From an uncultured Cellvibrionales bacterium (GTDB taxonomy: Bacteria > Pseudomonadota > Gammaproteobacteria > Pseudomonadales > Cellvibrionaceae), in assembly GCA_913050115.1 (NCBI GenBank), contig CAJWZU010000004.1, positions 1-64,000 of the forward strand: a stretch of DNA of 64,000 nt, in the 5' to 3' direction. The notes beneath the pieces were generated by a model that worked only from the letters and a program-made list of their open reading frames with translations, was not told the origin of the DNA and did no database searches. Positions 20,928 through 26,144 of the stretch are shown piece after piece; the stretch's first letter is position 1; each line of letters opens with the position of its first letter. Position numbers and translations under genes: made by a program.

Positions 20928-22220
20928 ATGAACGTATTGATTATTGGTAGCGGCGGCCGTGAGCACGCCCTGGGTTGGAAAGCGGCTCAGAGTGCCGGGG
21001 TTGAGAAAGTATTTATTGCACCGGGTAATGCCGGTACCGCGCTGGAAGCGGGTCTTGAAAATGTCGCTATCGGCGTGTCTGATTTCGAGCAACTGGCTCA
21101 ATTCGCAGCGGAAAACAATGTCGGCATGACGATTGTTGGCCCTGAAGTCCCGCTAGTTGACGGTGTTGTCGATTTCTTTCAAAGCAAAAACCTGAAGTGC
21201 TTCGGCCCATCTAAGGGTGCCGCACAACTTGAAGGATCCAAGTCTTTCACCAAAGACTTTCTCGCCCGCCACAAGATTCCTACCGGCAGCTACGGCAACT
21301 TCACCGAAGTTGAACCGGCTCTAGCTTACCTGCGCGAACACGGTGCGCCGATTGTAGTTAAAGCCGATGGCTTGGCTGCAGGTAAAGGCGTCATAGTCGC
21401 CGAGACTCTTGAGCAAGCCGAAAATGCCGTAACCGATATGCTTTCTGGCAATGCTTTTGGCGAAGCCGGTTGCCGCGTAGTCATCGAAGAATTTTTGGCC
21501 GGTGAAGAAGCCAGTTTCATTGTTATGGTCGACGGCAAGAACATCCTGCCAATGGCCACCAGCCAAGATCATAAGCGCGTTGGCGACGGCGATACCGGCC
21601 CCAACACTGGCGGCATGGGTGCCTATTCTCCGGCCCCAGTAGTGACCCCTGAAATTCACGATCGCATTATGGCTGAGGTAATTCGTCCCACCGTTGACGG
21701 TATGGCGGCCGAAGGCAATGACTACACCGGTTTCTTGTACGCTGGCTTGATGATAGATGCTGACGGCACGCCCAAGGTTATCGAATACAACTGCCGCTTT
21801 GGTGACCCTGAAACCCAGCCAATCATGTTGCGTATGCAAAGTGATTTGGTCGCTCTGTGCGACGCAGCCTTGGCAGGAAAACTCGACCAATGCGAGACCT
21901 CTTGGGACCCACGCGCGGCCATTGGCGTTGTACTGGCCGCAGGCGGCTACCCTGGCGATTATGCTAAGGGTGATGTGATTTCGGGCCTGCCGACTGATTC
22001 CAACAAAGACCAAAAGGTTTTTCATGCAGGAACTGCTGAGAAAAACGGCAAGGTTGTGACTAACGGCGGCCGCGTTTTATGCGCCACCGCCCTTGGCAAC
22101 ACTGTGCTCGAAGCTCAGCAAAAAGCCGTAGCATTGGCCCGGCAGATTAGCTGGGATGGTGTATTCACTCGCTCAGATATAGGCTACCGCGCGATTGCGA
22201 GAGAGCAGGGTAAGCGCTAA
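20928..22220 (+). CDS. purD: Phosphoribosylamine-glycine ligase (GARS)
   Basis: Second step of purine synthesis: ligates glycine to phosphoribosylamine with ATP. It has 430 residues: N-domain (MNVLIIGSGGREHALGWK), ATP-grasp domain with PIVVKADGLAAGKGVIVA (about 140-157), the family signature with RFGDPETQ (about 289-296) and a C-domain with FHAGT. All normal. AGAGA lies upstream of the ATG. A strong terminator stands between purD and the kinase downstream. Confidence 0.98.
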   Translation: MNVLIIGSGGREHALGWKAAQSAGVEKVFIAPGNAGTALEAGLENVAIGVSDFEQLAQFAAENNVGMTIVGPEVPLVDGVVDFFQSKNLKCFGPSKGAAQLEGSKSFTKDFLARHKIPTGSYGNFTEVEPALAYLREHGAPIVVKADGLAAGKGVIVAETLEQAENAVTDMLSGNAFGEAGCRVVIEEFLAGEEASFIVMVDGKNILPMATSQDHKRVGDGDTGPNTGGMGAYSPAPVVTPEIHDRIMAEVIRPTVDGMAAEGNDYTGFLYAGLMIDADGTPKVIEYNCRFGDPETQPIMLRMQSDLVALCDAALAGKLDQCETSWDPRAAIGVVLAAGGYPGDYAKGDVISGLPTDSNKDQKVFHAGTAEKNGKVVTNGGRVLCATALGNTVLEAQQKAVALARQISWDGVFTRSDIGYRAIAREQGKR

Positions 22221-22385
22221 TATCGTTTGGATCTCGCTGAGCCATTCTACCGAAGTCACCGCGGCATGCGGCCATCATGGATGAGAAAGTACTGAGAGCA
22301 CATCGTTACAGGGATGTAACTTAATAGGGCAATGCATGGAGCAATTTGCCAAAGAGCGGTTTTTTCTGCGTCCATGCTGAATATA

Positions 22386-22423
22386 AAGGCCCCGCTGGCA
22401 TTGCTAGCGGGGCCTTTTTTTTT
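22386..22423 (+). terminator. Rho-independent terminator after purD
   Basis: GGCCCCGCT (22388-22396) pairs with AGCGGGGCC (22406-22414), followed by nine T residues. It lies 165 bases after the purD stop; the sequence between includes GTTACA-GGGA-TGTAAC (22304-22319), a small palindrome. Confidence 0.92.
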
Positions 22424-22490: not shown

Positions 22491-24350
22491 ATGCAGGACG
22501 CATTTATCGGCAGTGCCTACGGCATTGCCGCGATAAGTTTCTTTTTTGGCGCGATGTCCATTCTTATAATGACTAATTTGGTCCAAGCCGCGATTGAAAA
22601 AGAGCGTAAATATTTAAGCTACGGCTGCTATCTGCTTCTAGCGGCCGCCAGTTGCGCTTATTGGCTATACCTGTCTACCGTCAGTACAGTGTTAGCGGCT
22701 ATGCTGCTACTAACCTGCAGCGCTCATATCACCTTTAGCCGCTACTACTTTCACTGCAAGAAAAATATGCCTAGCTGGCATCGCTATTTAACGGTTTTAG
22801 GTATAACAGGGCTGATCTTCGTGCCTTTAATGCTGATTGATTCCATTCAAACAGGTTTACTCTGCACGTTCGGCCTCGCCACATTCATTAGCACCTTTGT
22901 ACTGGCGATCTACGCCAGTAGCCGCGGTTTTGGTCGCTCGCGCAGCTACATTCTCACTCGCTTCTGCACCACCCCCATTGTCTTAATGCTGATAGCCATG
23001 ATCACGGGAGTTATTGCCACCGACAACACCATTTTTAGTGCCGCATTGTTGGCGCTGCTACTCGACGCCGCCAGCACCACCTATACCTTGGTGCAGCGTC
23101 AGATTAGACATATGCATGAGCGACTGCTAACCCACTACAACCTCAGTGTCGAGCGCGCGCAAAAACGCCAGCAGGGTAATAGCCTGCGTCAAATTAGCCA
23201 TGATATTCGCACCCCCATCAGTGGTGTTTTAGGTATGTCTGAGCTGTTATTAGAAACGTCACTAAACCGCAACCAACGCGATCAGGTAGAAATTATTCAC
23301 CGCACCGGCGAGTCTCTGTTGCGCTGGCTCAACGGCGTCTCCGACTGGGCCGCCCTCCAAGCTGGGCGGCTAAAATTTAAAAATGTACCGTTCGACTTTG
23401 TCGGGGTCATCCGCGACTGCACCGATGCCTTAAAGGAGGTCGCCAGCGCACGTCAAGTCAATATTCAAACGGTGCTCGACCAGCGACTGCCAACACTGGT
23501 TAAAGGCGATCCAGAGCGTTTACAACAGGTGTTACGAGGTTTATTCGATTTCGCACTCTACTACTCAGAGCAGGGCCAATTGAATTTTTGTGCCACTTTA
23601 ACCGGTGAAAAAAATCGCTGGCTGCTGGAATTAACCGACACCCATAGCGGGCTGCGCCCAGAAGACTTAAACGGCCTCGACAGTGTTTTTGACGAGCAAA
23701 ACCCGAGCGAGCTAAGCCCTGTGGAGATGAGTGTTCACCAGCGCAACTGGAGCGTGGCTGCGCGTCTGTGCGAGATGATGCAGGGCCGTCTGAATGTCAG
23801 CTTCGACCCCGCGTCCAACAAGGACACCGTACGCTATCGCTGTGAACTACTGCTGCCACGCCACACGCTGCTATCACATTCCGAAGCCAAGTATGATGAA
23901 CTACTCAAAGGTAAACGCCTACTCGTTATCGACGACAGCCACTCTAGCCGCAAAATTGTCGCCAAGCGTGCGGAGCAATGGCAGATGCGCGTAAGCGCTG
24001 CCCCCAATGGCGAAGAAGCGCTGGCAATGATGCGCACTGTAGTGGGGCTGGGTGGTCACTTTGACTTAATCATTCTTGATTACGATTTGCGGGGTCTGAA
24101 TGGGCTAGAGCTAGCCGAGACGATATCCCGCGACCTAACGCTCGGCAATCCGGCGATTATTATGCTTTCCGGTGCCAGCACCGCACCCAACAGTGACACC
24201 GCCGCCGCCTCAGGCATACGCCGAGTACTGTCAAAACCTATTAGCACACAGTCCTTAAAGATCACTCTGGCCGAAGAGTTAACTGTCAACAAGGTTCGCC
24301 CCAGAACGTGTACTCCAGCCCAGCCTGGAACTACCGCATCAAAGGCATGA
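22491..24350 (+). CDS. Hybrid histidine kinase at the retS position, degenerate ATPase domain
   Basis: A 619-residue membrane hybrid kinase. Seven predicted helices occupy about residues 9-200, with no large periplasmic domain. A HisKA domain follows with the H-box RQISHDIRTPISGVLGMSEL (phospho-acceptor His237). The HATPase domain is damaged: where the N-box should read GNA, the sequence is LFDFALYYSEQG, with Phe in place of the Mg-binding Asn; the G1 box reads DTHSGL in place of DTGIGI. The C-terminal receiver is intact (DD at the start, Asp530, Lys in SKPIS). In Pseudomonas the gene after purD is retS, whose product restrains GacS by direct binding. RetS has a periplasmic DISMED2 domain and two receivers, both features reduced here. 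A RetS-like non-catalytic regulator is a reasonable inference. Confidence 0.82.
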   Translation: MQDAFIGSAYGIAAISFFFGAMSILIMTNLVQAAIEKERKYLSYGCYLLLAAASCAYWLYLSTVSTVLAAMLLLTCSAHITFSRYYFHCKKNMPSWHRYLTVLGITGLIFVPLMLIDSIQTGLLCTFGLATFISTFVLAIYASSRGFGRSRSYILTRFCTTPIVLMLIAMITGVIATDNTIFSAALLALLLDAASTTYTLVQRQIRHMHERLLTHYNLSVERAQKRQQGNSLRQISHDIRTPISGVLGMSELLLETSLNRNQRDQVEIIHRTGESLLRWLNGVSDWAALQAGRLKFKNVPFDFVGVIRDCTDALKEVASARQVNIQTVLDQRLPTLVKGDPERLQQVLRGLFDFALYYSEQGQLNFCATLTGEKNRWLLELTDTHSGLRPEDLNGLDSVFDEQNPSELSPVEMSVHQRNWSVAARLCEMMQGRLNVSFDPASNKDTVRYRCELLLPRHTLLSHSEAKYDELLKGKRLLVIDDSHSSRKIVAKRAEQWQMRVSAAPNGEEALAMMRTVVGLGGHFDLIILDYDLRGLNGLELAETISRDLTLGNPAIIMLSGASTAPNSDTAAASGIRRVLSKPISTQSLKITLAEELTVNKVRPRTCTPAQPGTTASKA

Positions 24351-24500: not shown

Positions 24501-26015
24501 TTAGTTCGCCAGCACGGTTCTTTCCGCTGCCCAGTGCCGCAGCTCCGCTACTTTCTCCGCCATGACTACCGATAAAGGGCTAGTATGATTGATCTCATTG
24601 AGAATATGGGCATCAACGAGCATGTCTTGAGTGGCCGCGGCGGTATAAATAGCCGCTACTATCGCCTGCTCTATCTCGGCACCAGAGAAGCCATCACTGG
24701 CGTGAACTAAATCGATCAAATCAAAGTCCAGTGCACTGATCGAGCGTTTATTGAGGTGAATATTAAAAATTTCCCGCCGTGCCTCGGCGTCGGGCAAATC
24801 GACAAAAAAGATCTCATCCAGCCGTCCCTTACGCACCAACTCTGGAGGCAAACCGGTGATGTCGTTGCTGGTACAGACCATAAATACTTTACTTTTGCGC
24901 TCAGCCATCCAAGTTAACAGCGTGCCCAGCACGCGCTTAGAGGTGCCACTTTCGCCGCTATCCTGACCCATGCCCTTCTCGATTTCATCCAGCCACAAAA
25001 CGCAGGGCGACATAGTATCGGCCAATGCCAACGCCTCGCGTAAATTGCGCTCGGTCTCGCCAAAAAACTTGTTATAGAGTGCGCCAAAGTCGAGCCGCAA
25101 CAGTGGTAATCCCCAAAGACCCGCAACTGCCTTGGCAGCCAAACTTTTACCCGCGCCCTGCACACCTAACAGCATAATGCCTTTGGGTCGGTCTAAAGCT
25201 GGCTTATTTGCAGCGCTACTGTGGGTACTAATAAAACTGTCTCGGCGCTGCTGTAACCAGCGTTTGAGATTATTAAGACCACCGACATGGCCAAACTCTT
25301 CGGTGTTGAACTCAAAACTCATCACCCCCTCCATATCCATTAACTCGAATTTGGCCTTATTAATATCGGGCAGGTCGTCGTCAGTAATGGCGCCATCGTC
25401 AATAATGGCACCGCGCACCAAACGCCGAACATCGCCTGCGGGCAGCCCTTGCAGATTGGCTACCATTTTTTTCAAAATAATATTGTCGGTCTTAACGCGG
25501 CTTCCCCCGTGCTGGTTAGACCAGCTCTTGGCCTCTTCGCGGACGATCGACATGATTTGCTCGTCGCTCGGCAGAGACAAACGAAATAAGGCGCTATAAC
25601 GGCTAAGCTCTGGCCGCAGGGTAAATTTATGGCTGAGAAATATCAGCGTATGTGGCACCGAGTGGTAATTCAGAGCCATGTCTTTGATCAAGCGGACTAT
25701 GCGTGGGGCATTCTCGGAGTGCGGAGCCTCAAAGTAGGGATGAAAGTCGCAGAGTACAAACACGCCCGGCTCACTCATCTCCTTGATGTGCTCAAGTACT
25801 GCTTGCGGATCATCGTGTTCCGAACTGAACGCAATGGAGGGCCCGAAGCTCTGCCGAGACAGACCATCGGTACAGGACCAACGATAAATATTCTTGTGCC
25901 TTTTCGTCGCTACGCGCATCAACATATCAAGCGCACGCTTCTCCTCAAAAGTTTCTATCACCACCAAAGGCACTCTAGAGTCCAGTATTAAACCGAGATC
26001 GCGTACATCCTGCAT
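24501..26015 (-). CDS. AAA ATPase of the Ycf46 type
   Basis: An AAA-family ATPase of about 504 residues, related to the chloroplast/cyanobacterial Ycf46 proteins; its target in bacteria is not known. The N-terminal half (1-245) carries a second, degenerate P-loop-like fold without a Walker A. The C-terminal module has Walker A GVQGAGKS (about 281-288), Walker B CVLWLDEIEKG, sensor 1 CTSND and arginine-finger segment RKGRLDEIFFVDLP, followed by the AAA lid. I chose ATG 26015 (MQDVRDLG), with AGGA about 8 bases upstream. Pseudomonads also carry this ATPase beside coq7, osmC and crp. Divergent from coq7. Confidence 0.85.
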   Translation of the reverse strand: MQDVRDLGLILDSRVPLVVIETFEEKRALDMLMRVATKRHKNIYRWSCTDGLSRQSFGPSIAFSSEHDDPQAVLEHIKEMSEPGVFVLCDFHPYFEAPHSENAPRIVRLIKDMALNYHSVPHTLIFLSHKFTLRPELSRYSALFRLSLPSDEQIMSIVREEAKSWSNQHGGSRVKTDNIILKKMVANLQGLPAGDVRRLVRGAIIDDGAITDDDLPDINKAKFELMDMEGVMSFEFNTEEFGHVGGLNNLKRWLQQRRDSFISTHSSAANKPALDRPKGIMLLGVQGAGKSLAAKAVAGLWGLPLLRLDFGALYNKFFGETERNLREALALADTMSPCVLWLDEIEKGMGQDSGESGTSKRVLGTLLTWMAERKSKVFMVCTSNDITGLPPELVRKGRLDEIFFVDLPDAEARREIFNIHLNKRSISALDFDLIDLVHASDGFSGAEIEQAIVAAIYTAAATQDMLVDAHILNEINHTSPLSVVMAEKVAELRHWAAERTVLAN

Positions 26016-26055
26016 GCTAAGCGTCCTAATAAATTGACAAGTATTTACACAAGTT

Positions 26056-26071
26056 TGCCCATTAATGGGCA
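26056..26071. promoter_or_regulatory. 16-bp perfect palindrome between divergent ATPase and coq7 genes
   Basis: TGCCCATTAATGGGCA is self-complementary and sits inside a wider imperfect inverted repeat, GTTTGCC (26053-26059) with GGCAAAC (26076-26082). It lies 40 bases upstream of the ATPase start and 73 bases upstream of coq7. Operator-like; no regulator can be named. Confidence 0.45.
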
Positions 26072-26144
26072 TTCTGGCAAACAACACTGAACACATAGTG
26101 AGAACTCAGTTAACATAGCGTTAACTAACATAGAGTATTGCTTT

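Follow-up and report, generated by a model that had tools for sequence, protein, structure and literature searches.

A sensor-less, probably kinase-dead RetS descendant in Cellvibrionaceae that may restrain GacS by partner binding

A RetS descendant that has lost its periplasmic sensor and the motifs of its ATP site is encoded by an uncultured Cellvibrionales bacterium (family Cellvibrionaceae), and by analogy with RetS of Pseudomonas aeruginosa it seems to us fairly probable that this protein restrains GacS through the binding of one DHp domain to the other, perhaps with some help from phosphatase action. The gene for this 619-aa protein is located on contig CAJWZU010000004.1, in a stretch of 64,000 nucleotides (positions 1 to 64,000) that was analysed as a whole and is called the window below. 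RetS is a model for the control of one sensor kinase by another, and in P. aeruginosa, where it has been described to act on GacS as a phosphate sink through REC2, as a phosphatase and by blocking autophosphorylation (PMC5992135), the three mechanisms need to be separated by mutation. The ten-member Cellvibrionaceae clade described here may have separated them naturally: it has conserved the DHp surface but dispensed with kinase activity and the REC2 sink, and most of its members also with the phospho-accepting His. With these natural variants one can ask if GacS is restrained by binding and nothing else, and the members from the genus g22 permit asking what RetS does without GacS.

Gene and locus

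The coding sequence (22491–24350, + strand, 619 aa, ATG start) comprises a 7TM domain, a DHp domain, a degenerate CA domain and a single receiver, REC1. It directly follows purD (20928–22220, +, assigned by frame and locus comparison), the usual upstream neighbour of retS, as an earlier sequence-only reading of the window had recognised, and 270 bp separate the purD stop from the start of the frame. A terminator-like stem-loop in this gap (22385–22417, +, 15 pairs followed by a T tail) suggests that the gene is transcribed separately from purD; it is a match to a consensus only, of which five were found in the whole window and 2.9 were expected. On the other side lies a convergent frame (24501–26096, −) that we take, from its sequence alone, to be an AAA-type ATPase.

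The gene order conserved around RetS-type genes is dusB, fis, purH, purD, the RetS-type gene, an AAA ATPase in some genomes, coq7, osmC and crp. Gene names used for this and the other loci (recO, era, cysM, rlmD, relA, murB, coq7, osmC etc.) are our assumed assignments, made from the sequences with no library. Twelve RetS-type loci are named here, i.e., those of nine clade members and of three full-length proteins from other Pseudomonadales MAGs, and purD is found upstream in nine of these. In two others (L049/L019 and L053/L023) less than 1 kb of contig precedes the RetS-type gene, and in Aestuariicella hydrocarbonica (L055/L026) the 7.8 kb upstream contain other genes and no purD, with the AAA and coq7-like downstream genes kept. 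A relative of the AAA-type-ATPase-like frame adjoins the RetS-type gene in four of seven named clade loci (L048, L050, L052 and L055). Two clade loci have, some kilobases beyond the RetS-type gene on its downstream side, a further frame that weakly matches the 619-aa protein (L050:11718-14147, 4e-14; L051:11684-14026, 7e-34).

Descent from RetS

The three best PDB sequence matches of the protein are chains of the RetS kinase region. When 120 genomes of the family were searched, its own among them, nine relatives besides the protein itself stood out clearly (E 1.3e-139 to 3.4e-95), and the match after these was at 8.8e-49; a 25% match over residues 17–593 was found in genome G005 (E 2.1e-36). 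The named relatives come from Exilibacterium and Pseudomaricurvus, both members of the Cellvibrionaceae, from Aestuariicella and from Cellvibrionaceae or Cellvibrionales MAGs. Within 6 kb after purD, no RetS-type kinase was found in five other genomes of the family (G003, G004, G010, G018 and G034).

For a wider sample, purD was found in 148 of 155 genomes of the order (E <= 1e-60), and the 6 kb downstream of purD were fetched for 60 of them that had been chosen to span many families, two of these stretches being very short (L174 and L181). A kinase match (E <= 1e-3) was present downstream of purD in 29 of the 60 genomes, which became 27 as the weak L156 was dropped before tree construction and L145 grouped with kinases of other kinds. 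The tree has 53 rows, of which the 40 RetS-locus kinases, i.e., these 27, the ten members of the clade and three full-length sequences from MAGs, form one branch (100/100), and the clade with the 619-aa protein forms its own branch (100/100). Linkage to purD is shown for seven of the ten clade rows and for 37 rows of the whole branch. Five tree rows are Pseudomonas-type, among them L150, identified through PDB matches to RetS structures of both the kinase region and the sensor domains, and the seven other kinases of the own genome that were included (L002–L007 and L009) fall outside the RetS branch. Two of the rows, L022 and L023, are without the N-terminal part, and the identical L059 and L152 are both counted among the 30 other RetS-locus sequences with which the clade is compared below. 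Because this single, fully supported branch coincides with the synteny, the 619-aa protein is, on phylogeny and locus together, RetS by descent. The relationship to RetS that the sequence-only reading had proposed from the locus is thus borne out by a tree that places the protein inside, not away from, RetS.

The AlphaFold2 model (13 sequences) has a mean pLDDT of 81.4 and a pTM of 0.51, and on account of the latter the domain arrangement was not used as evidence. With this model, Foldseek placed RetS chains at ranks 3–17, behind ShkA and GacS, with 27–30% identity over the aligned kinase region. For the kinase region, the best VIA-align row was RetS (6dk7; Z 21.0, 216 residues, 5.5 Å rmsd, aligned mainly domain by domain), and GacS (7z8n) was aligned with Z 19.4 over 273 residues at 5.2 Å; the majority of the VIA-align rows cover the receiver.

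Loss of sensor and ATP-site motifs, and of the histidine in most relatives

Only 15 residues stand ahead of the 7TMR-DISM_7TM membrane domain (aa 16–202, 22536–23096, +; Pfam 33.2 bits, cut-off 29), which leaves no periplasmic DISMED2 domain, and no 7TMR-DISMED2 sensor was found in the protein with Pfam. This domain is present in the Exilibacterium sequences L048 and L049, in L057 and L059 and in the Pseudomonas-type L150, and absent from L051, L052, L054 and L056 of the genera g14 and g22. The periplasmic sensor is therefore gone in the 619-aa protein and in two other genera.

The degenerate CA (HATPase_c) domain (aa 300–460, 23388–23870, +; delimited by Pfam, alignment and AlphaFold2) is still recognisable, with 22.8 bits against a Pfam cut-off of 26.4 that is passed by one of six other clade members scanned (L052, 31.4 bits). 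Compared with an active HisKA kinase, the His is present and all three ATP-site motifs are missing, i.e., the N-box Asn, the DxGxG of G1 and the GxG of G2 (F354, DTHSG and QRN, respectively). In the alignment, the Mg-binding Asn is replaced by Phe354 (23550–23552, +) and the G1 box by DTHSGL (aa 383–388, 23637–23654, +; also read from the translation), both as described in the sequence-only reading, and QRNW (aa 417–420, 23739–23750, +) additionally replaces the G2 box, which is GLGL in the GacS of the own genome. The N-box Asn, Gly385 of G1 and both Gly of G2 are lost in all ten clade members, and Asp383 is kept in all ten.

The loss of these motifs is real, but the sequence-only reading needs correcting in that a dead ATPase does not set the protein apart from RetS. 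That of P. aeruginosa is already described as having a degenerate HATPase domain without G-boxes and as being unable to autophosphorylate (PMC5992135), and the N-box Asn is missing in 18 of the 30 other RetS-locus rows (two of which are identical). Since, moreover, N-box, G1 and G2 occur together in only three of the 30, the RetS-locus family seems, from these alignments, to have lost its kinase repeatedly. The three sequences with all ATP-site motifs (L155, L159 and L186, from the families f25 and f28) might still be active kinases.

The HisKA/DHp domain (aa 229–291, 23175–23363, +; Pfam 46.5 bits) carries an aligned H-box HDIRT (aa 237–241, 23199–23213, +). The presence of His237, which had been noted before, holds but counts for little, because only five of the 71 DHp columns vary more within the clade than position 237, with His in two members, Arg in four, Asn in two, Asp in one and Gln in one; it is His in 28 of the 30 other RetS-locus sequences. 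Around it, R240, P242, S244, G245 and G248 are invariant in the clade, position 238 is acidic (D or E) in all ten members and T241 is found in eight. The only other member with His is L025, which is not a neighbour of the 619-aa protein on the tree. Unordered parsimony gives four changes at this position over the RetS rows, and five losses of His are counted within the clade from the kinase tree if regain is impossible. The phospho-accepting His thus appears to be no longer needed in the clade.

Two further cases of an altered H-box were encountered. In the family f30, L183 (genome G186) and L161 (genome G148) represent a separate purD-linked RetS lineage in which the H-box His is replaced by Thr and Ser, and both genomes keep GacS. 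The own genome encodes a second degenerate hybrid kinase (L009:868-3087, −; G000:C61:5322-7541) with the H-box GREFRT (His to Arg), an N-box Asn replaced by His, a first receiver without Asp and an intact second receiver. Of 18 genomes searched for it, own included, 15 gave a match of at least this strength: 1e-70. The His is kept in 12 of 13 other sequences aligned.

Conservation and selection

Mean identity within the clade is highest for the DHp domain (0.58), followed by the receiver (0.55), the CA domain (0.43) and the 7TM domain (0.26). The DHp domain is also the most conserved one in the two other RetS groups compared, so the pseudokinase clade does not stand out in this respect. More distinctive are Trp279 and Trp286 in the second DHp helix (23325–23348, +; by alignment) and Trp420 in the CA domain, each found in all ten members; among the 30 other RetS-locus sequences, Trp occurs at these positions in 0, 1 and 0 cases, respectively.

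The nine relatives share the degeneracy at 31–43% identity to the 619-aa protein, which argues that its gene is not decaying in appearance. Omega (NG86) could be estimated from two of four pairs of relatives, the other two being saturated in DHp, CA and receiver and the 619-aa protein having no relative close enough. Across four domains and the two pairs it ranged from 0.04 to 0.43, as a rough measure given dS values of 0.6 to 1.8, and for the DHp domain it was 0.04 (L025/L026) and 0.23 (second pair). These low values thus suggest that selection acts on a DHp domain without the means to phosphorylate.

Partners, proposed action and alternatives

A GacS partner, for which a search had been suggested on the basis of the sequence-only reading, is present in the own genome. 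This GacS (952 aa) is flanked by recO and by cysM-rlmD-relA and has intact N-box, G1 and G2; its best NCBIfam match is BarA with 680 bits, under the cut-off of 890 bits that no BarA match in the 31 genomes searched reaches. The genome further encodes an intact GacA and three CsrA matches, two of them strong. GacS is found beside cysM in eight of the ten clade genomes, own included.

Binding to GacS, the direction of the effect and the phosphatase action are all inferred here from P. aeruginosa RetS, whose block of GacS consists of a DHp-DHp heterodimer (PDB 7N0E; PMC12148439); an interaction of RetS and GacS has also been reported by two-hybrid in A. vinelandii (PMC11330419). By analogy, the 7TM-anchored DHp domain of the 619-aa protein would pair with the DHp domain of GacS, and the heterodimer would replace the GacS-GacS interface and so block GacS autophosphorylation, leading to less phosphorylated GacA and, via small RNAs, to the release of CsrA/RsmA. 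Through its HDxxT motif the protein may in addition dephosphorylate the receiver of GacS, and REC1 may be retained for its fold, with a possible role in regulation or as a scaffold. Without DISMED2, the protein may be constitutive or responsive via its 7TM domain. As REC2 is missing and a DHp domain with HDIRT is kept, binding is the mechanism that we prefer, with phosphatase action as a possibility, and the protein probably works mainly by partner binding. Among the literature matches listed, no biochemistry on any clade member was found.

Phosphatase action of P. aeruginosa RetS needs T428 of the HExxT motif (PMC5992135). The corresponding residue in the clade is Thr in the eight genomes that bear GacS and Ser in the two without it, which would fit a strict coupling of this Thr to GacS. 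Such a rule was rejected, since outside the clade Thr is replaced in seven of 27 GacS-bearing genomes. It follows that ExxT is not required in every RetS-GacS pairing and that the Thr of HDIRT is weak evidence for phosphatase action here.

The single receiver (aa 475–598, 23913–24284, +) has D481, D482, D530, S560 and K582, which agrees with the intact receiver described previously; Pfam places Response_reg at aa 478–590 and found no second receiver in the protein. A tree of 61 receivers places the clade's single receiver among the first receivers (40 rows, 100/99), and the second receivers are separate (21 rows, two outside kinases among them); four frames run up to the limit of the sequence fetched (L155, L159, L177 and L186) and may have a REC2 beyond it. 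Judged from this tree, the remaining receiver is REC1 and REC2 is gone, and the absence of a large periplasmic sensor and a second receiver, as first proposed, is upheld by Pfam and the receiver tree. The phosphate sink known from RetS is therefore unavailable to the 619-aa protein. It is accordingly unlikely, although the best of the alternatives, that the protein is a phosphate shuttle in which REC1 and/or His237 accept a phosphoryl group from GacS or an Hpt protein with no kinase activity of its own. D481, D530 and K582 are found in all ten clade members, which for D530 and K582 would be odd if the receiver were never phosphorylated, and His237 is retained in the 619-aa protein and His in one other member, points that count against our main reading; HptB has moreover been reported to phosphorylate P. 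aeruginosa RetS (PMC5992135). Yet in P. aeruginosa it is REC2 that accepts the phosphoryl group from GacS, with Asp858 needed, and removal of the REC1 Asp left phosphorylation of RetS by GacS-P unchanged (PMC5992135), and in the clade the second acidic residue, D482, is kept in only six of ten members and the His is lost in eight. Of the three roles once envisaged, i.e., phospho-acceptor, binder or phosphatase, the first is thus the weakest, and the other two remain as parts of the proposed restraint of GacS by DHp binding.

Slightly less probable still is a partner other than GacS, with the protein as a membrane adaptor for a different hybrid kinase or response regulator. The location of GacS beside cysM in most of the clade speaks against it, and the invariant, clade-specific Trp279, Trp286 and Trp420, which suggest a remodelled surface, speak for it, as does the persistence of the gene in the two g22 genomes examined (G021 and G043). 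Both have recO and cysM on one contiguous contig with no gacS between them, and no BarA/GacS profile match in either reaches 1e-150. A gap in these draft genomes (88% and 83% complete) was considered as the cause and rejected, given that recO and cysM are joined on one contig. The absence is based on the recO-cysM locus and the profile search, both of which did find the GacS of genome G039 that was absent from another listing. Both g22 genomes keep CsrA and the RetS descendant, the H-box of which is REIRS. If the gene works there, GacS is not its sole partner across the clade.

In G021, a GacA-like frame (L222:2980-3702, −) was found between a murB-like gene and uvrC. Its DNA-binding GerE domain is intact, and Pfam found no receiver; in the receiver part, the two adjoining acidic residues and the Lys are missing and Tyr replaces the phospho-accepting Asp. 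Neither uvrC nor a relative of this GacA was found in G043, so the statement on a degenerate GacA applies to G021. The apparent persistence of the RetS descendant where gacS is missing is the most surprising lead from these genomes. It can be tentatively extended to the speculation, which we hold to be possible but rather doubtful, that Cellvibrionaceae RetS is a phosphorylation-free membrane adaptor holding a DHp surface, which in g22 outlived GacS and (in G021) the GacA phosphosite, and which may have a job bypassing GacS. RetS-type proteins could then have a GacS-independent job.

A weakly active kinase, in which the CA domain binds nucleotide in an unusual way, is very improbable. The AlphaFold2 CA domain is folded (ten-residue means 79–88, lower at 391–420, with a low-confidence stretch at 401–411 in the place of the ATP lid) and Asp383 is invariant, but the N-box Asn and the motif glycines are gone throughout the clade, a Trp occupies the G2 box and most members have lost the phospho-accepting His. 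Least credible of all is a decaying pseudogene without function, for which one could cite the loss of domains together with a draft genome of 2.7 Mb and which is contradicted by the full-length frame, the low omega in the measurable clade pairs and the residues invariant across genera.

Comparison with known systems

RetS homologs have been characterised by two receivers and a 7TMR-DISMED2 input domain (PMC11330419). The 619-aa protein shows neither hallmark and is for this reason filed as RetS-derived, not as canonical RetS. With P. aeruginosa RetS (6DK7, 6DK8, 7N0E) it shares the linkage to purD, the succession of 7TMR-DISM_7TM, HisKA, degenerate CA and receiver, the lack of usable G-boxes, the acid and Thr of the H-box and the presence of GacS in the genome. 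It differs in the absence of DISMED2 and REC2, in a G2 box that reads QRNW, in two clade-specific DHp Trp residues and in the loss of the N-box Asn, which is kept in the five Pseudomonas-type sequences; the acid of its H-box is also Asp (HDIRT) instead of the Glu of HExxT in RetS. A dead ATPase in RetS is already known (PMC5992135). Among the literature matches listed, no work on a RetS without sensor or on Cellvibrionaceae RetS was found, nor any report of the reduced architecture, the repeated His loss or the persistence without GacS.

Also close are the full-length RetS-type proteins of other Pseudomonadales (L057, L058 and L059), which have the same locus and fall in the same tree branch. 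L057, placed as the nearest sister with weak support (96/69), is already down to one receiver and its CA domain is dead, L057 and L059 keep DISMED2, unlike the 619-aa protein, and L058 and L059 keep two receivers and the G2 box.

Outside the RetS family, a parallel is offered by DivL of Caulobacter, which is not known to have a receiver or a 7TM domain. DivL, found among the fold matches (4Q20), is likewise a pseudo-histidine kinase that controls another kinase (PMC4211667), but it is alphaproteobacterial, acts on CckA (PMC9430884) and matches the 619-aa protein only weakly in sequence (phmmer E 7.5e-7). ChrS of Corynebacterium is a histidine kinase turned pseudokinase in a different system (PMC9491836).
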